In this document: positions 7,327 to 22,300 of the stretch, in pieces
Numbering within the stretch: the first letter of the stretch is position 1
How the letters are laid out: each line of letters opens with the position of its first letter
Origin: Heterotrichella gracilis
Lineage: Eukaryota; Sar; Xanthophyceae; Tribonematales; Xanthonemataceae
Assembly (NCBI GenBank): GCA_032358255.1
Contig: JAULBX010015863.1
Coordinates: 27,658-91,657 of the forward strand
DNA length: 64,000 nucleotides
Direction of reading: 5' to 3'
The notes under the pieces: model-generated
Told to the model about the DNA's origin: nothing
Seen by the model: only the letters and a program-made list of their open reading frames with translations
Database searches by the model: none
Program-made: the position numbers and the translations under genes

Positions 7327-10300
7327 TCACGCCACAGAAACCACCTCTGCAGGGATTCCCTCCCCCGTCTCCACCATCACCACATCCCCCGCCTCGTCCC
7401 CACCCCCATCCTCCCCCTTGCCCCCCACCACCCCCACCCCCGCCACGGTCACCACATTGATCCCCGGCATGGGCCCCCCCGCCACCCCCGTCACATCCTC
7501 AAAGTCCTCCAGGTCGTCATCCGCCCACGAGCGGATGTCCACAAACTGCTCCCCGCCGGGCTGCAAGTAATCCACCTCCCCTGACGCCACCTTGTCCGCC
7601 AGGGTGTCATCCAGCTCGGGGTGGTCGTCCCAGTGCTTGAGGGCAGCTGCGGATGCCAGCTTGGCCGCCAGGCGCTGGCTGCGCACCCCCCTGCAGGCCC
7701 CCATGGGCATGCCCGCCACCACCGCCACCACGCCCCATGCCTTGTCTTCTTGCTTCTTCATCCTCTCCTCGACGTCCACCACCATGAAGCGCACCAGGGC
7801 ACCAACCTTGGAGGCACGCTCCTGGGTAACACGGGGGGGTTTGCTGATCATCCGTCGTATCTAGTTGGAACTGGGTACATAACCACAGGGCCACCCTTGT
7901 TGAACACCATCTAGCAAGGAACCTTGGGCACCAAACCCTCAAGGCGCTGTATTACCTTATGTACCAAAGTTGCGACTTTTGTCAATCCGTAACTAGAAGG
8001 ATGAAATCTCATGCAAACAAATGCTAGATCTTGAAAAACGTAACAAAAAGGGTGAACTCAACTTTCACCAGCTATCGTCAACAGAGGGCGCATTTCTGTC
8101 GCTTTCCCCATGACACAACAGTGCAAAAAATGCTGAATTACCCATCTCAACCCATTGAACGCCCTCTCAAAACCCTTCTTGGCACAGGCAATTTATTTGC
8201 ATCTGTCTTCTTACCATGATGGCCCGCACGGGGTGGACCGGCACCATCTCCGGCGTGAGCAGCGGCGACATGAGCGGCGCCACCACCCGCCAGGTGGCAT
8301 CCAGGTCGCCCCCCGTGTCGCAGTACACCGCCCCGATCACCGACTCCACCAGGTCAGCCATGGACTTGGGGGCGGACACGCGGCTGCGGCCAAAGGTGGC
8401 GCTGGCCAGTTTTGCAAGCAGCGCCATGGATTCAGGGGAGGCGGGGTCAAACACCTGGAAGGGGAGGGAGGATGGGGGGTGGGGTGGGGTCAGACTTGTG
8501 GGGGATGGAGAGGAAGCGGGCAGCAGGGGCATGGAGTCAAACATCTAGAGGATGAGGTGGGGATAGGGAATGTGCCCTCCAGTGACAAGTGGCCCAGATT
8601 CTGCCTAGCAGGTGCACCGCACAGGGCCCCGCTGCTGTTGCCAGGTGCGCCGCCGCATGACTTTTGTGTGCGCACACACACGCCCCACCCCCACCTGCCA
8701 CTAATACGGTACATGACACAGGACTGTGAAGCAAGTACAAGTTGGGGTGCAGTGTTCCCGCCGCCATGCCCGGCCACTCCCTTCCAGTCCTCCAAAGTTA
8801 TACAAGGATCGTGCAGGGATTGAAACTGCATGCTCTAGGGTTCCTGCGTTCCATTGTAGGGTTTCCCGTGCCACTCACGTGCCCCTCCAGCTTATACCCC
8901 TCCTGCTTGCAGCTGTCCTCCAGCACCCCACAGAACCTGCAGATATCGGTGAGCAGCGCAGGCGACACGTGGCGCATGTAGCGGTGCAGGCCGCGCACGG
9001 CGCAAATGCGCGCCAGGCGCTCGTCGTTCACACTGGCAGACAGCAGGTCGTGCAGGCGGCCAGGGGACAGGTTGCTGCGAGGGGGGAGGGTTTGGAGTAG
9101 GGTGAGGTGGGGGTGATGAATGGGCAAGGAGGGTTTGTAGCCTCTTAGGGGGGGCTGCGAGAGGGGGTATGGGGTGAGGTATGCGCACAAGAAAGGTTTG
9201 CAACCTAATTGTGAGGGGCTGTGCACCACTCAGGGTAGGGGTTTGCACAGGCCACATGGCGTTCACACTGGCTGACAGCAGGTCGTGCAGGCGGCCCGGG
9301 GGCAGGTTGCTGCGCACAGGGGGGTATACGGGGTGAAGGGGCAAGGAGGGGTTGCGGGCGAGGTGTGAGAGACTGGGCGGCAAGCGGGGTAAGTGCTTGC
9401 ACAGGCCAAACGTTGCATGCATGGTCCTACAAGCTGACGGGTGCCAGAGGGGCCGGACAACGAAGGGAGGCGATCTGGCGACAGCTGGGTGTTTTTGGTG
9501 TATTTTGAATTTCTGTCGAAAAGCCCGAAATGCCATTTCTAGTTTAACCCACACGTCAACGATAAGTAACAACAGCAATGCCACTGGGCTGGCACCAAAT
9601 GGCTGGGAAGAAAACTGGATCATCCATGTATCAGTCTCTCATTCCCACCCTGCGCCCCCCCTGCTGCCCCTACTACCCACTGGCGGGACATGGGATACTA
9701 TGCCCACCAGTGGGTAGTAGGGGCAGCAGGGGGGGCGCAGGGTGGGAATCAGTGGCTCGAGGTGAAGGAGCACGCCTCCTCCCCCCACCTGTACATATTC
9801 AACAGGTTGTGGGTGACCCGCAAGCCCATGATCCTGCAATCCATCACCATGTACTAGACCCCCTTCAGGGCGTTCACATCAGACCTCCTCCCAGCCCCCC
9901 CCACCCACCTGTATCCGTTGAACAGGTTGTGCGTGACCAGCAGCCCCATCACGGCATCCCCCAGGAACTCCAGGCGCTGGTAGCAGGGGGGGCGGGGCCA
10001 TGAGGAGTGCGTGAGCGCCTCGCTGAGCAGCGGCACGCGCACAAAGGTGTGGTCCAGGCGGGACTCGAGGAGCTCAAGGTCCTGCAAAAGGAATGTGATT
10101 CGATAGGTGACACTTTATAAAAAAGCAGTATTTATTTACATTATATTTGATTATGCATCATTATGCGATGTACACGATAAACAAAATTAAAAAAACGACG
10201 GATTAAAAAAAAAGTAAAGTTTACGGGGGTGGGGTGGGTGTGGGTGTGGGGTGTATGTGAAAAATCCCAGGAAATACCAGGAAATTCCTTGAAGGGAGGC

Positions 10301-16300: not shown

Positions 16301-19300
16301 AGTTGGCCAGCGCTGTGCCAGCCATTCTCCTCCATAGCATGACCCTGCACCTGCGTCACACCAAACCATTGGTATCACACAAGTGCGTGTGTACCACGCA
16401 AGCCTTCAGCATTGCAGCAGATGCGACTGCCAGCACCTGCCAGGATATGCATTGCCATGATCCATGACCACGTGTCGCTCTTTCCCTAGCAGGACATACA
16501 GCTGCATCGGCACAGAAATATCCCCTACCCCCCGTCACTGCAGGCTAGCAGCCTATTGATCAACATGCAGACTCTGGGTCGCATGCAGGTGCATGAGATG
16601 CACACAGGGTTGGCCATTCAGTTCATCCCTACCTCTGGTACGGGATCAGCGCCCTGCCCTGAATCCTGTCTTACAACCCCTTGCATTAGGTTTCTCAACC
16701 ACTGCCGCCAGCCAGATTCGTCGCTTGGCGGGCTGCCCAAACCACCTCCACCACCACCACCACCATCACCACCATCCACCACAAGAGGGGGTGCAGTGGT
16801 GGCGGAGGTGGGTGTGAGTACAGTGTCCATGGTAGTGGGAGTGGGTGGTGATGGAGGGGGTTGTTCGGGCAATTCCCGTAGCTCAAATGTGTAGAGGTGG
16901 AAGGTGCGGGCGCCCGTCCTGTGCACCAAAAAATGGACGCCTTAAGATGGGGCTTTATCCATTGCAGCCAGGGATTCCCTTACCCTAGAAGAAGCGCCCA
17001 GCCCTATGCGCATGCACTCACCCAATGGCGCAAGCAAACAGCAAGTTTTTAATATCCTGATTTGTTTTGTTAAAGTAACCCAGTGTATCTCTGTATGCAA
17101 CAGACAGCACCCTTGTTTCAAATCACATTGATGCGCTAAGCAAAGGCAGGTATCAAAACACATGCTACCAGCACTGACCAAGCGCCACCTGCGCCATGAA
17201 ACATGGTCAGAGTGTGTGGTGTACCCAGCACTGCTAGGTCCTGCTGCAAAAGGGGCGGCACATGCACCAACGCACTCCTCTGGGTGGCACATCTGGCTTT
17301 TTTATTAAGGGTTTAGGGTGTACACCAACTCACTCCTCTGGATTCTCCACGTCTTCCGGGACCTTGAGTGCGTGAGGGAGCGTGGTCTCAACCTCCACAC
17401 CCCCAATGAACCTGGCATCCTCCTCAGTCTGTGGACCCTTGCCCGCCCCAAATGGGTTGATGACCACGCTGGTCCTGGGCATGGGTGCCGGCACCGGGCA
17501 CGAGGGTTGCTTCTTCTTGCGGGGGCGGTGGGGCAACAGGTGGTCGGACAGCTGGCCCAACTGCATGGAATGGGAAGGGCGTGTGTGTGGGGGGGTGGCA
17601 GCGTGGTGTTAGAAGCGGTTTGCCACACTGCAACCTTAGAGTTGACTTGAATATGCTACCTCCAGACTCTGCTCAGTCATTGTTCTTTCAGCCAGCCAGG
17701 AAGGGAGCCATCAGCAGAGCAATTGGGAAATCAGTGGTTTTAGATTCAGCCCCCAATCTGCAATTCTTGCTTATGCTATTGGTCGGGGTGTAGTGTGCAT
17801 CACTCGCCATATAAAAGCACATGCCTGATCCTGTCACGCCCCTACCTTGGGCCACCTTCTGTGTGATCGCCCTAAACCCTACACCATTGAGCCCTAGGTG
17901 ATCACAGACCAGTATCCTAAGCATGGTTTAAGGGTAGAATGCCCAGGTAAGTTGAATTTACTCGGCCATTTCCACATGTAACCCCCAATTTGCACCTGGT
18001 GCAGCTTCTGCACGGCCTGCAGGCATCCCGCAGCCATTGCGCGCGACTTGCTATGCGCAGGTGGGCCGGTGACTATGGGCAGCGGGCAGGGCCTGGGCAG
18101 GTACAGGGACGCAACGAAGCCACTTGGAGTGAGGCTGGTGTGGAAGTGGGGGGCTTTGTCGGAGCTGCGGTGAAGGTGGGGGTGGGGAGGTGAGCAAAAC
18201 AGTGCGAGGTGCAGAAGGCATGGCCATGGTTTACATCTACACAATAGTGTCTGTCCCATTTCATGATGCCGGTGTTGGGAAACGGCCCCACACATTCAGT
18301 TCACAAACCCGTACATCCAAACCCTTGACCCCACCCATTTATGTATTTATTCATTCATTTTGCCCCCCAACCCCTTGGCTCACCCCTGCAGCCATTCGCA
18401 GTACTGGTGCAGCAGCGCCTTGGCATTGGCGCTACCCACACGCGCACCAGTCTTTTCCACACGGTACCAATCGTCGGGGCTGAGATCCTGCGCAGAGCAT
18501 GGGCAGGCGGGGTTGGTCATGACAGATATGAACAGAGAGCGGCGGGAACCCTGGAGGGCCCTGTCCTTTGGCACCTGCAGAATCACCTGCATCCCTCCCT
18601 TGTCCCACAGCACCAGTGGAAAGGGTGAGTGTGAGGGTGAGCGGGCGGCACTGGCAAACTACCTGGCACCCTAGGGACGTCCGCACACATACAGGGGTAC
18701 ATAACACACAGGGAGACGACGTGTGCAGGTGAGACGTAAGCACCATGGCACCTGGTATACCCCCGGGGCCGACAAGTTGTCAAGCTAACAGTGGGTAGCA
18801 TGAGACCAACTTGGTGCAAAGCAGCAATGCCAGGCAAGCAGGTGGCAGCCCAGGTGAAGCCCTACTGTCATTTAAGGTTTAGGTTTAGGCTGTGTGCAGG
18901 CTAGCTAGGGGGCAAATGGCTGCACATGTGCACCTGCACCTGCAGCTGCAGCTGCAGGGGCTAGCCAAGCGTGGCGCACTCACCATGTCGTCATCTTCCA
19001 CAATCTCCCCCTCCTCCAGCTCATCCCCCTGCTGGAGCACAGCCTCCATGCGCTGGGCAGCCTCGCCGCGCATGACCGCCTCGTACCTGGGTGTGGTGAA
19101 AGGGTTTGGAGAAGGTACGGGTAGGGTTTTTGTGCGGGGTTGCAGGGTGTTTGTAGATAAACACCGGTGGAAGACAGGTGGGCTGACTGGGTCAGGTAGC
19201 TGATGCAGCAAGGGACTCAAAAGGGCTATTTATGAGTTCGAAGGCTGGCACAGGGCATTTCCGACTGTGGGGCAAAGAATCACTCACCGGGCCTCCCTCT

Positions 19301-22300
19301 CTCCATGCACACTAGGAACTGCGTCGTACTAGTTTTGATTAGAAGCAGTGCTGCAGGTGTCATCCTGATGCGAAGTTAGGTGCAAGCCTTGCAATGGATT
19401 CACACCGAGTAGAGCCTTTTGGGACGAGTGTGCACCTTGACCTCTGTATATCATAAAGTACTCACTCGTATGGCAGTGCCATGGTGCCCGGTGGGGGCTG
19501 CGCATTGAACGCTGCCCATCACTAAATCACTCATCTTACAAGATATCGGATGTTGCACATCGTCACCATGGCCGCCCTTACCACGGGGCTTGTGCAGCGC
19601 ATGCAGTGAGGCACCCATGTGCACAAGATGCATGCGGTATGTACGCCCCTGGATGTGTCTGTGTGTGGCATGGTGCCATTCCACGTCACAGACACGGCAA
19701 CAGGCATACACACCACAGGCATCTGCAGCACATGGGATGACAGTCTACTTCACCGGGCCCAACAACCGCTCACCGCTGGTTCCAGGCAAGGGCGCAGACC
19801 CTTGCATCAAGACAATCCCCTTCCCCATATACTTCTCTCGCGGTAGATCCTGGTGCCATAGGCCCCGCCCAGAGCACCCCTTCTGCCTGCCCTGTTGACT
19901 TGGTCCCCTTCCCCATATATTCCTCTCGCTGCAAGCTCAGCACACGGCACCTACCACCACCTCCACCCACCCACCCCACTGGCACCTAATGTAACAACCC
20001 GGGGAACACATGCACCCCACCAACACTCACAACATGCACAACTGCACCACACCGCGCCTCGTACCTCACCCCGACTCACCTCTGCAGTACTGCTTGGAAA
20101 AAACACCCCCTTTCACCTGCCAGACCCCACCTCGCAGCTGCCCCACCCCCACACCCACACATACTGCACCACAATTGCTAAGAAAGCACCTCCTCCATTC
20201 CACCCCGACCCCACTTACTGCTGCACCATCGCCTGGTACCCCTCCTCATCATCGTCCCCCCTGCGCAGCATGAGCACCAGGCAGCTGGCCAACTCACGTG
20301 CCCGCCCCCTGCTCTGGATGAATGCCAGGGGGGTGGAGGGCAGGTCGAAGCGGATCACCTGGGGGAGGCAGAGGGGTGGAGCAGGGGGGGGAAATGATGC
20401 ATAGAGGACATGCATCAAGGAAATGGATGTGTATTTCTCAAGACACATACAAAGTAATATAGTACAATTGAAGATCATGGAGTGCATTTATCACAGTATG
20501 CAGCATGCCCAACAGTACTCCACCAATATAACTACATGAGAAACAAGATTTGGCAACAGCATAGTTTGCAACAGGAAACTCGAAACCTTGGACCATGACC
20601 ACCACATCCACACACGTCCCCCCTCCACTCCATACACCACACATGCCGATCCCCCACCTGTCTGCACGCCGGCAGGTCCAGCCCCTCCTCCCCCACACTG
20701 GTGCTGAGCAGCAGGTTGAGGGTGCCGGTGCGGAACTGGGACAGCAGGGAGCCCTGGGCCTGGAGGTAAGGGGGGGAGGGGGGTTGTCACATATGCAGGG
20801 GAGTGGGTGGGCTGGTGCGTGGGCAGGGCATCTGGATGCAGCTCACGGTGAGCGGCAGAGGCAGTGGGCACACAGGGATGGATGGGATGGGGTGGGGGTG
20901 ACAGCATGCGGTCCGCTTGCCGGGCAGCAGATAGCAGCAAATTCGCCCTCGCTGCCGCCGTTCCAATACACCACACATACCAACACCAACACCCACCTTG
21001 ACAGTTCCCATCCCCCCTGCCACCCCTCCCGTCCCCATGAATGCCGCCGCCCGCACATGCCCCGTGGCCGCCAGTGTCCCCAGTAGTCGGGCTAGCGCCA
21101 GCGCCGCCGCCTTGCGTGTCACAAACACAATGCAGCTCCAGGCGCGGGTGGGGCCTGTGGGCGAGAACAGGGTCCGATGCATGTTAAATTGGAGGGCGTC
21201 ACCATGCAACATACACATTGGAGTCAGATTTTTAAGGTGTCTTTTGTTGTGAAGCAGCCATTACGCGCCATGCCAGAGAGCACTATCATTGTTCTTTTGT
21301 CTAAGGATAATGGATGTCGCAATCCCCCGTTGCCGGTTGCGGCTGGTGCTGGTGCTGGTCATGCGCCAACCCCACACATTGCCATGTGTACAAAAAAATC
21401 AAACCATGCGATAACATCCCCCAGCAGCAGCACCACCAACCCAGCCACATCACCCACCATCTTCCCCGCCCACGCTCTCCTCCACCTCCGCCTTGCTAGC
21501 CGCCAGGTGCGCCACCAGGCCCGCCACCTTGGGAGTGACCACAGGCACACCACGCATGCGACGCAGCAGGGCGCCGCCGCTGGAGCTGGGGGCCTGGGGG
21601 GGAGGGTCTGGGGAGACGGTGTGGTGGCACTGCTGGGCAAGGTCCATGACCTGGGGGGGCAGGGGGGGCACTAGCTAGGGAGGTGGAAACTGAGACATTT
21701 TTAATCAGGGGGGCGGCAAACATCAGACTGCATAGGGTGTCGCTACCAACTATGGCATGACACACCACAACCACATCTACCATCACTATGCATTACACAC
21801 GTGCATTGACCCATGCAAGATCACTGTCCCCCCTAAACATTCACAAACACAACCCCATGGTCCGACACCCACCCCCCCGCTCCCTCACCTGTCCCTCCAC
21901 CGCCCCTGGCTCCACCCCCTCCAGCGCCTCCGCCACCACCTTCCCCAGCTGCCCCCACATCCCCTTGCCCTCATCCCCCGCCACCACGCGCCCCACCTCC
22001 TCCCCCCTTAGCAGCCCCACCACCAGCCCCACCGCCTCCCCCAACGACAGCGCCACCGCCCTCCCCTTTGCGCTGACCTCGTTGGCCATATCAAACCCCC
22101 CCTGGTAGGCATCGTCCTCAAGCTGCCACAGCTCGCGGTACAGCCTGCGGATGGTTTTGGGTTTAGGGTTTAGGCATGAGGCTAAAGTGTGTGGCAGTTG
22201 GGGGTGTGGGTGTGTGCGGGGACTCGTGCGAGGTGGGATGAGTGGGGAGGCATTGCAGAAAGTGTGAATATGTAACAAAAAGTTGCCCCATCAGCCACGA

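Follow-up and report, generated by a model that had tools for sequence, protein, structure and literature searches.

A perfect 43-bp hairpin in a probable intron of an algal Dicer-like gene, most likely left by a DNA-copying accident

Hairpins located in introns of Dicer genes have been described in land plants, where miR838 (Arabidopsis DCL1, intron 14) and miR1047 (moss DCL1, intron 7) are reported to have arisen independently (excerpt of PMC4429486). A later miR1047 deletion mutant was stress-sensitive, with a stress phenotype (excerpt of PMC10721683), and in the green alga Chlamydomonas DCL3-dependent miRNAs derive from intronic hairpins of coding genes, without effect on host mRNA (excerpt of PMC4817775). 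We analysed a stretch of algal DNA of 64,000 nucleotides (hereafter the window) that carries a perfect 43-bp hairpin within a Dicer-like gene. Like MIR838, this hairpin lies inside what appears to be a Dicer-gene intron and would allow the enzyme to cut its own pre-mRNA (excerpt of PMC4429486); like MIR1047 of Physcomitrium, it is a Dicer-intron hairpin of presumably independent origin, and it shares with the Chlamydomonas loci its probable position in an intron of a coding gene. In contrast with the miRNA reported in Arabidopsis, the function reported in the moss and the intron-derived miRNAs of Chlamydomonas, the algal hairpin, with its perfect stem, is known from DNA sequence alone. The initial annotation had proposed that such an equivalent in an alga would be new; it is not new in kind, since miR838 and miR1047 precede it, but an algal case would be the first outside land plants, and none of the matches listed in a full-text literature search bore a title about an algal Dicer-intron hairpin. 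If functional, it would be the third independent Dicer-intron hairpin after these two. Our data indicate that the hairpin is real, probably intronic and young, and most likely a DNA-copying accident, with self-regulation of Dicer as a possibility.

The hairpin had been placed between the RNase IIIb exons of a Dicer-like gene, and this placement was borne out, the probable host intron being delimited through homology and splice-site sequences. The recognised parts of the gene, all on the minus strand and in transcript order, are as follows.

24306-23986, minus strand: ResIII (Pfam, below cut-off)
20786-20532, minus strand: Helicase_C (Pfam, above cut-off)
11816-11454, 10114-9854, 9229-8798 and 8544-8167, minus strand: RNase III pieces (Pfam; the curated cut-off was reached by 10114-9854 only)
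9909-10081, minus strand: exon A of the Dicer gene, initial portion of RNase IIIb (LEFLGDAV) (Pfam, splicing in silico, PDB match)
9075-9908, minus strand: probable intron with the hairpin, GT...AG, 834 nt (boundaries predicted)
8879-9074, minus strand: exon B of the Dicer gene, central portion of RNase IIIb (Pfam, splicing in silico, PDB match)
8215-8454, minus strand: exon C of the Dicer gene, final portion of RNase IIIb (DLVESVIGAVYCD) (Pfam, splicing in silico, PDB match)

Dicer-type parts were found, in order, in six of the ten stop-free minus-strand stretches run against Pfam, the other four giving no match at all. The Ribonuclease_3 profile was split at the hairpin's intron, with positions 1-23 before it, 24-65 after it and 76-102 on the next exon; as single exons the RNase IIIb parts stayed below the Pfam cut-off for Ribonuclease_3, while Ribonucleas_3_3 on the first was just above its own. 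Spliced in silico, the three exons (10081-9909, 9074-8879 and 8454-8215) formed a single open frame whose top PDB match was 'Endoribonuclease Dicer homolog 1' (7eld_A, the Arabidopsis protein; E 1.5e-47), followed by other Dicers. The same entry was matched over residues 745-780 by the stretch 20487-20215 (E 7e-5), which carries helicase motif VI. We took the gene as 16.1 kb, from 24306 to 8215, as delimited by these recognised parts, and its true ends may differ. In the assembly we found four Piwi-domain matches (exons on two contigs), and the chlorophyll a/b-binding family was matched 43 times, in agreement with a photosynthetic eukaryote having an Argonaute; the corresponding RNase III family search missed even the window's own exons and is thus uninformative on a second Dicer gene.

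The hairpin itself consists of the following parts.

9707-9749, minus strand: 5' arm once transcribed, perfect over all 43 nt (repeat finding and simulation)
9684-9706, minus strand: inter-arm segment, 23 nt (RNA folding of both strands)
9641-9683, minus strand: 3' arm once transcribed, perfect over all 43 nt (repeat finding and simulation)

The two arms are exact reverse complements 23 nt apart, as the initial annotation had stated, and ungapped extension showed 93% complementarity across 55 nt (9633-9687 with 9703-9757). On the plus strand, eight extra pairs inside the inter-arm segment (GGG/CCC and CATGG/CTATG, one of the eight being G-U) reduce the loop to 4 nt. The hairpin is far above chance expectation for random letters: in 50 simulations of the window under an order-3 Markov model, perfect inverted repeats reached 14 nt at most, against 43 in the hairpin, and the runner-up in the real window (loops of at most 200 nt) was 21 nt. 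The region 9630-9760 had a predicted fold of -126.5 kcal/mol on the plus strand (z -15.4) and -122.2 kcal/mol on the minus, or gene, strand (z -14.2), and none of 200 shuffles was equally stable on either strand. The claim that the stem offers a Dicer-type substrate is upheld to the extent that, by the predicted fold, it could form one, a shape that is not specific to such substrates.

To account for the hairpin, a short inverted-repeat transposon had been named as the main alternative. A remnant of such an element (MITE) would have the terminal-inverted-repeat shape seen here, and inverted repeats of the Volvox transposon Jordan yield miRNAs (excerpt of PMC5093975). A 6-nt direct repeat also lies at the flanks.

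9630-9635, plus strand: ATCAGT, left copy of the direct repeat (flank comparison)
9748-9753, plus strand: ATCAGT, right copy, sharing two bases with the arm's end (flank comparison)

This repeat is, however, asymmetric about the hairpin and runs into one arm; beyond the arms proper, CAGT alone is common to both flanks, and a repeat of at least 6 nt was present at 3% of random places (P about 0.03). Transposons are moreover expected in several copies, whereas searches of the 68.5-Mb assembly with the 200-bp hairpin stretch and with the 836-bp intron stretch, exon-end copies included, matched only this locus, very common words being skipped in both. A 22-mer from the stem had no other match with up to two mismatches in the assembly and one with three; a 23-mer from the other end likewise had none elsewhere with up to two and two with three. 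Because of that word filter, single-copy status is strongly, though not absolutely, established. With no second copy and no convincing target-site duplication, a transposon origin is quite improbable, and the pattern that the initial annotation had named as its refutation, numerous near-identical copies with such duplications, was not observed. The 200-bp and 836-bp queries also gave no genome match outside the locus that would indicate an extended similarity of an arm to a coding gene, the feature expected of a MIRNA gene that arose by inverted duplication of its target.

We then considered the hairpin against the foldbacks of the genome at large, sampled as 25 pieces of 10 kb, of which 22 (220 kb) were used. 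The three pieces L006, L016 and L023 (GC under 0.40, open frames of up to 839 aa), probably bacterial, were left out of the rates, the counts of co-occurring local repeats and the null pools; perfect arms in them never exceeded 16 nt, and their inclusion would make the rate slightly lower. Two loci in the 220 kb, L007:9557-9687 (43 bp perfect) and L017:2940-3008 (32 bp perfect), carried perfect stems of 30 bp or longer. The L017 foldback matched its own place only, and that of L007 had one weak 46-bp partial match elsewhere. At these rates, the chance that a 16.1-kb gene contains perfect arms of 30 bp is 0.14 (95% interval 0.02-0.41), and of 43 bp 0.07 (95% interval 0.002-0.34), both from a small sample. 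Since comparable foldbacks exist elsewhere in the sampled genome, the hairpin is not a class of its own, but the strongest seen within a class also present elsewhere. As an observation on the L007 locus, its perfect arms belong to a longer inverted repeat (L007:9483-9761, 86% over 284 nt, 43 bp perfect), the weak 46-bp match being on contig C381.

The best explanation, which we consider fairly probable, is an inverted duplication of recent date, made by foldback or template switching, that incidentally created a Dicer-type substrate. A nascent strand or broken end would have folded back and copied itself, yielding in one step an inverted duplication of about 43-55 bp, and the young duplication would have become fixed within an intron, where harm is small. 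Such a single event would account for the perfection of the stem, the close spacing of its arms and the absence of relatives. Of this reading, the perfect stem, the lack of any other copy found, the location in the Dicer gene and the foldbacks present elsewhere in the genome were observed; the intron, the origin at the DNA level, the fold of the RNA in the cell and any cutting are inferred. At 7% arm divergence, a perfect 43-bp stem has a probability of 0.04, and its perfection agrees with a recent origin, although selection or arm-to-arm correction may also have kept the arms identical. In yeast, foldback synthesis at microhomologies after breaks generates short templated inverted duplications, mostly of 5-34 bp (excerpt of PMC11724301), and template switching has been argued to make perfect stems in one event (excerpt of PMC8794818). 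The hairpin resembles such duplications in that its arms are perfect and close together and no further copy was found; in contrast, its 43 bp exceed the usual yeast range, and the largest template-switch-like pattern of the latter study, 59 bp, failed that study's own quality control, according to the same excerpt. Transcription of the Dicer pre-mRNA would be predicted to give a rod of at least 43 bp, which Dicer-type enzymes could cut before or after splicing into siRNA-like products, any such cutting being incidental and not selected. Products of siRNA-like rather than miRNA-like type are our guess, because plant DCL1 is said to act only to a limited degree on perfectly paired dsRNA (excerpt of PMC1790633). 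Should the hairpin not be processed, it would be a clean case of a perfect Dicer-type substrate made by one copying accident, and raw material for new microRNA genes.

Local duplication of another kind is also found in the host intron, which contains copies of the adjoining exon ends.

9789-9829, minus strand: A', duplicate of the exon A tail with the donor site copied behind it, 32/41 identical
9260-9309, minus strand: B', duplicate of the exon B head with the acceptor site copied in front of it, 47/50 identical

We cite these two copies in favour of the accidental origin. They do not extend to a hot-spot claim, because direct copies of this type are not special in the genome: among 164 pieces 1,400 nt long, 30 contain one. 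A rearrangement hot spot in the intron was accordingly dismissed as unsupported: inverted copies occurred in 14 of the 164 pieces, and both repeat kinds together in three, including the Dicer piece, against about 2.6 expected. A' could also be interpreted as an in-frame cassette exon of 45 nt. The position of the hairpin between A' and B' raises a different role, in which the stem would aid splicing by folding away the intron between these decoys, leaving splicing to the true donor (9908) and acceptor (9075). In favour of this role, the stem is retained in the predicted centroid fold of the whole intron, but it pairs there with itself and with neither decoy; the argument is purely positional, and we hold a splicing function to be very unlikely.

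That same predicted retention of the stem, at a distance of some 160 nt from the donor, also bears on a regulatory reading modelled on miR838 and miR1047, in which Dicer would cut the stem in its own intron in competition with splicing and thereby lower Dicer mRNA, with or without a small RNA as product. The hairpin is in the right gene, its stem folds on the gene strand, and after correction of the energy for GC no foldback in the 11,258 folding windows covering 284 kb was more stable. The Piwi-domain exons of the assembly are in keeping with this reading, and so is the intron or UTR origin of 61.1% of the high-confidence miRNAs of Chlamydomonas (excerpt of PMC4817775). Against it, the intron-derived miRNAs of that alga leave host mRNA levels unchanged, the limited action of plant DCL1 on perfect dsRNA would disfavour such a substrate, foldbacks of similar grade exist outside the Dicer gene, and even the physiological role of miR838 and miR1047 was called largely uncertain in 2015 (excerpt of PMC4429486). 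On balance we regard self-regulation as possible but doubtful. Processing of the hairpin, if it occurs, would mean that autoregulation of Dicer through hairpins in its introns also arose beyond the land plants, and would suggest that this feedback evolves easily and is favoured time and again.

The regulatory reading is kept alive by a further foldback in the same gene.

19614-19736, minus strand: second foldback, imperfect, in a probable intron (about 19087-20218) of the Dicer gene

This probable intron is flanked by the motif VI exon and by a small probable exon (19086-18984) that has splice-site sequences and is without homology support. The second foldback folded at -83.3 kcal/mol (z -7.0) and ranked fourth among the loci of the 284-kb scan; no other copy was found when it was sought in the assembly. 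Four loci of the 284 kb folded beyond z -4.2, and two of them lay inside the 16.1-kb Dicer gene (binomial P 0.018), and a Poisson estimate from the 220-kb sample gave P 0.0097 for two strong loci in that gene. Taken alone, with the first one given (it was the first that prompted the look), the second foldback had P 0.14. A comparable loose palindrome outside the gene, L010:1457-1632 (74% over 176 nt), had a weaker fold (z -2.6). Windows with a nesting depth of at least 45 were so frequent that this measure did not separate loci, and it was disregarded. We consider the pair suggestive only as a hint of regulation; under a copying-accident origin of the hairpin, the second strong foldback is a coincidence. 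The second foldback is miRNA-like in shape, and gave one sub-threshold match in Rfam (E 0.01).

In Rfam, the whole window contained no family at gathering score. The hairpin gave 24 sub-threshold matches (listed to E 1), to 18 miRNA families and on both strands, with a best E of 3.3e-12, and the two control hairpins behaved alike (listed to E 0.01), with best E values of 2.1e-10 for L007 and 9e-9 for L017. Assignment to a miRNA family was rejected, since all 24 matches were below gathering scores, fell on both strands and spread over 18 families, and two controls did the same. The missing family is a weak argument against a miRNA gene, because new miRNAs need not match one. Comparison of the hairpin with exons A-C (609 nt) showed that an arm matches Dicer exon A at 15 of 16 nt. 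Random genomic stretches did as well in one of 1,500 cases at 16 nt, and in 209 of 1,500 at 21 nt; among stretches with GC of at least 0.60, P was 0.005 at 13 nt and 0.002 at 16 nt, and rose to 0.20, 0.16 and 0.33 at 18, 20 and 21 nt, respectively. We discounted self-targeting of exon A as evidence, because the 16-nt length was chosen after the near match was already visible. A more elaborate form of self-regulation would have both foldbacks (9641-9749 and 19614-19736) cut by their own Dicer, making this a third independent self-limitation and the first outside land plants, with a small RNA from the 3' arm that could additionally pair with exon A (15/16 nt); in this complete form we judge it unlikely.

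The hairpin might finally have been introduced during assembly or library preparation. The assembly does look mixed, in that three of the 25 sampled pieces combine low GC and long open frames, and in three cases a full-profile RNase III match lay in a single open frame. The hairpin, in contrast, lies inside a contig with flanks continuous with the Dicer exons, and its intron matched this place only, making an artefact extremely unlikely. As to the assembly as a whole, the low-GC pieces L006, L016 and L023, together with the single-frame RNase III matches on contigs C111, C442 and C137, suggest that bacterial contigs are probably present. A further short inverted repeat in the background sample, at L025:471-507, had 17-nt perfect arms, inverted around 3 nt, in which lies TTTAGGGTTTAGGGT, a sequence resembling plant-type telomere repeats.
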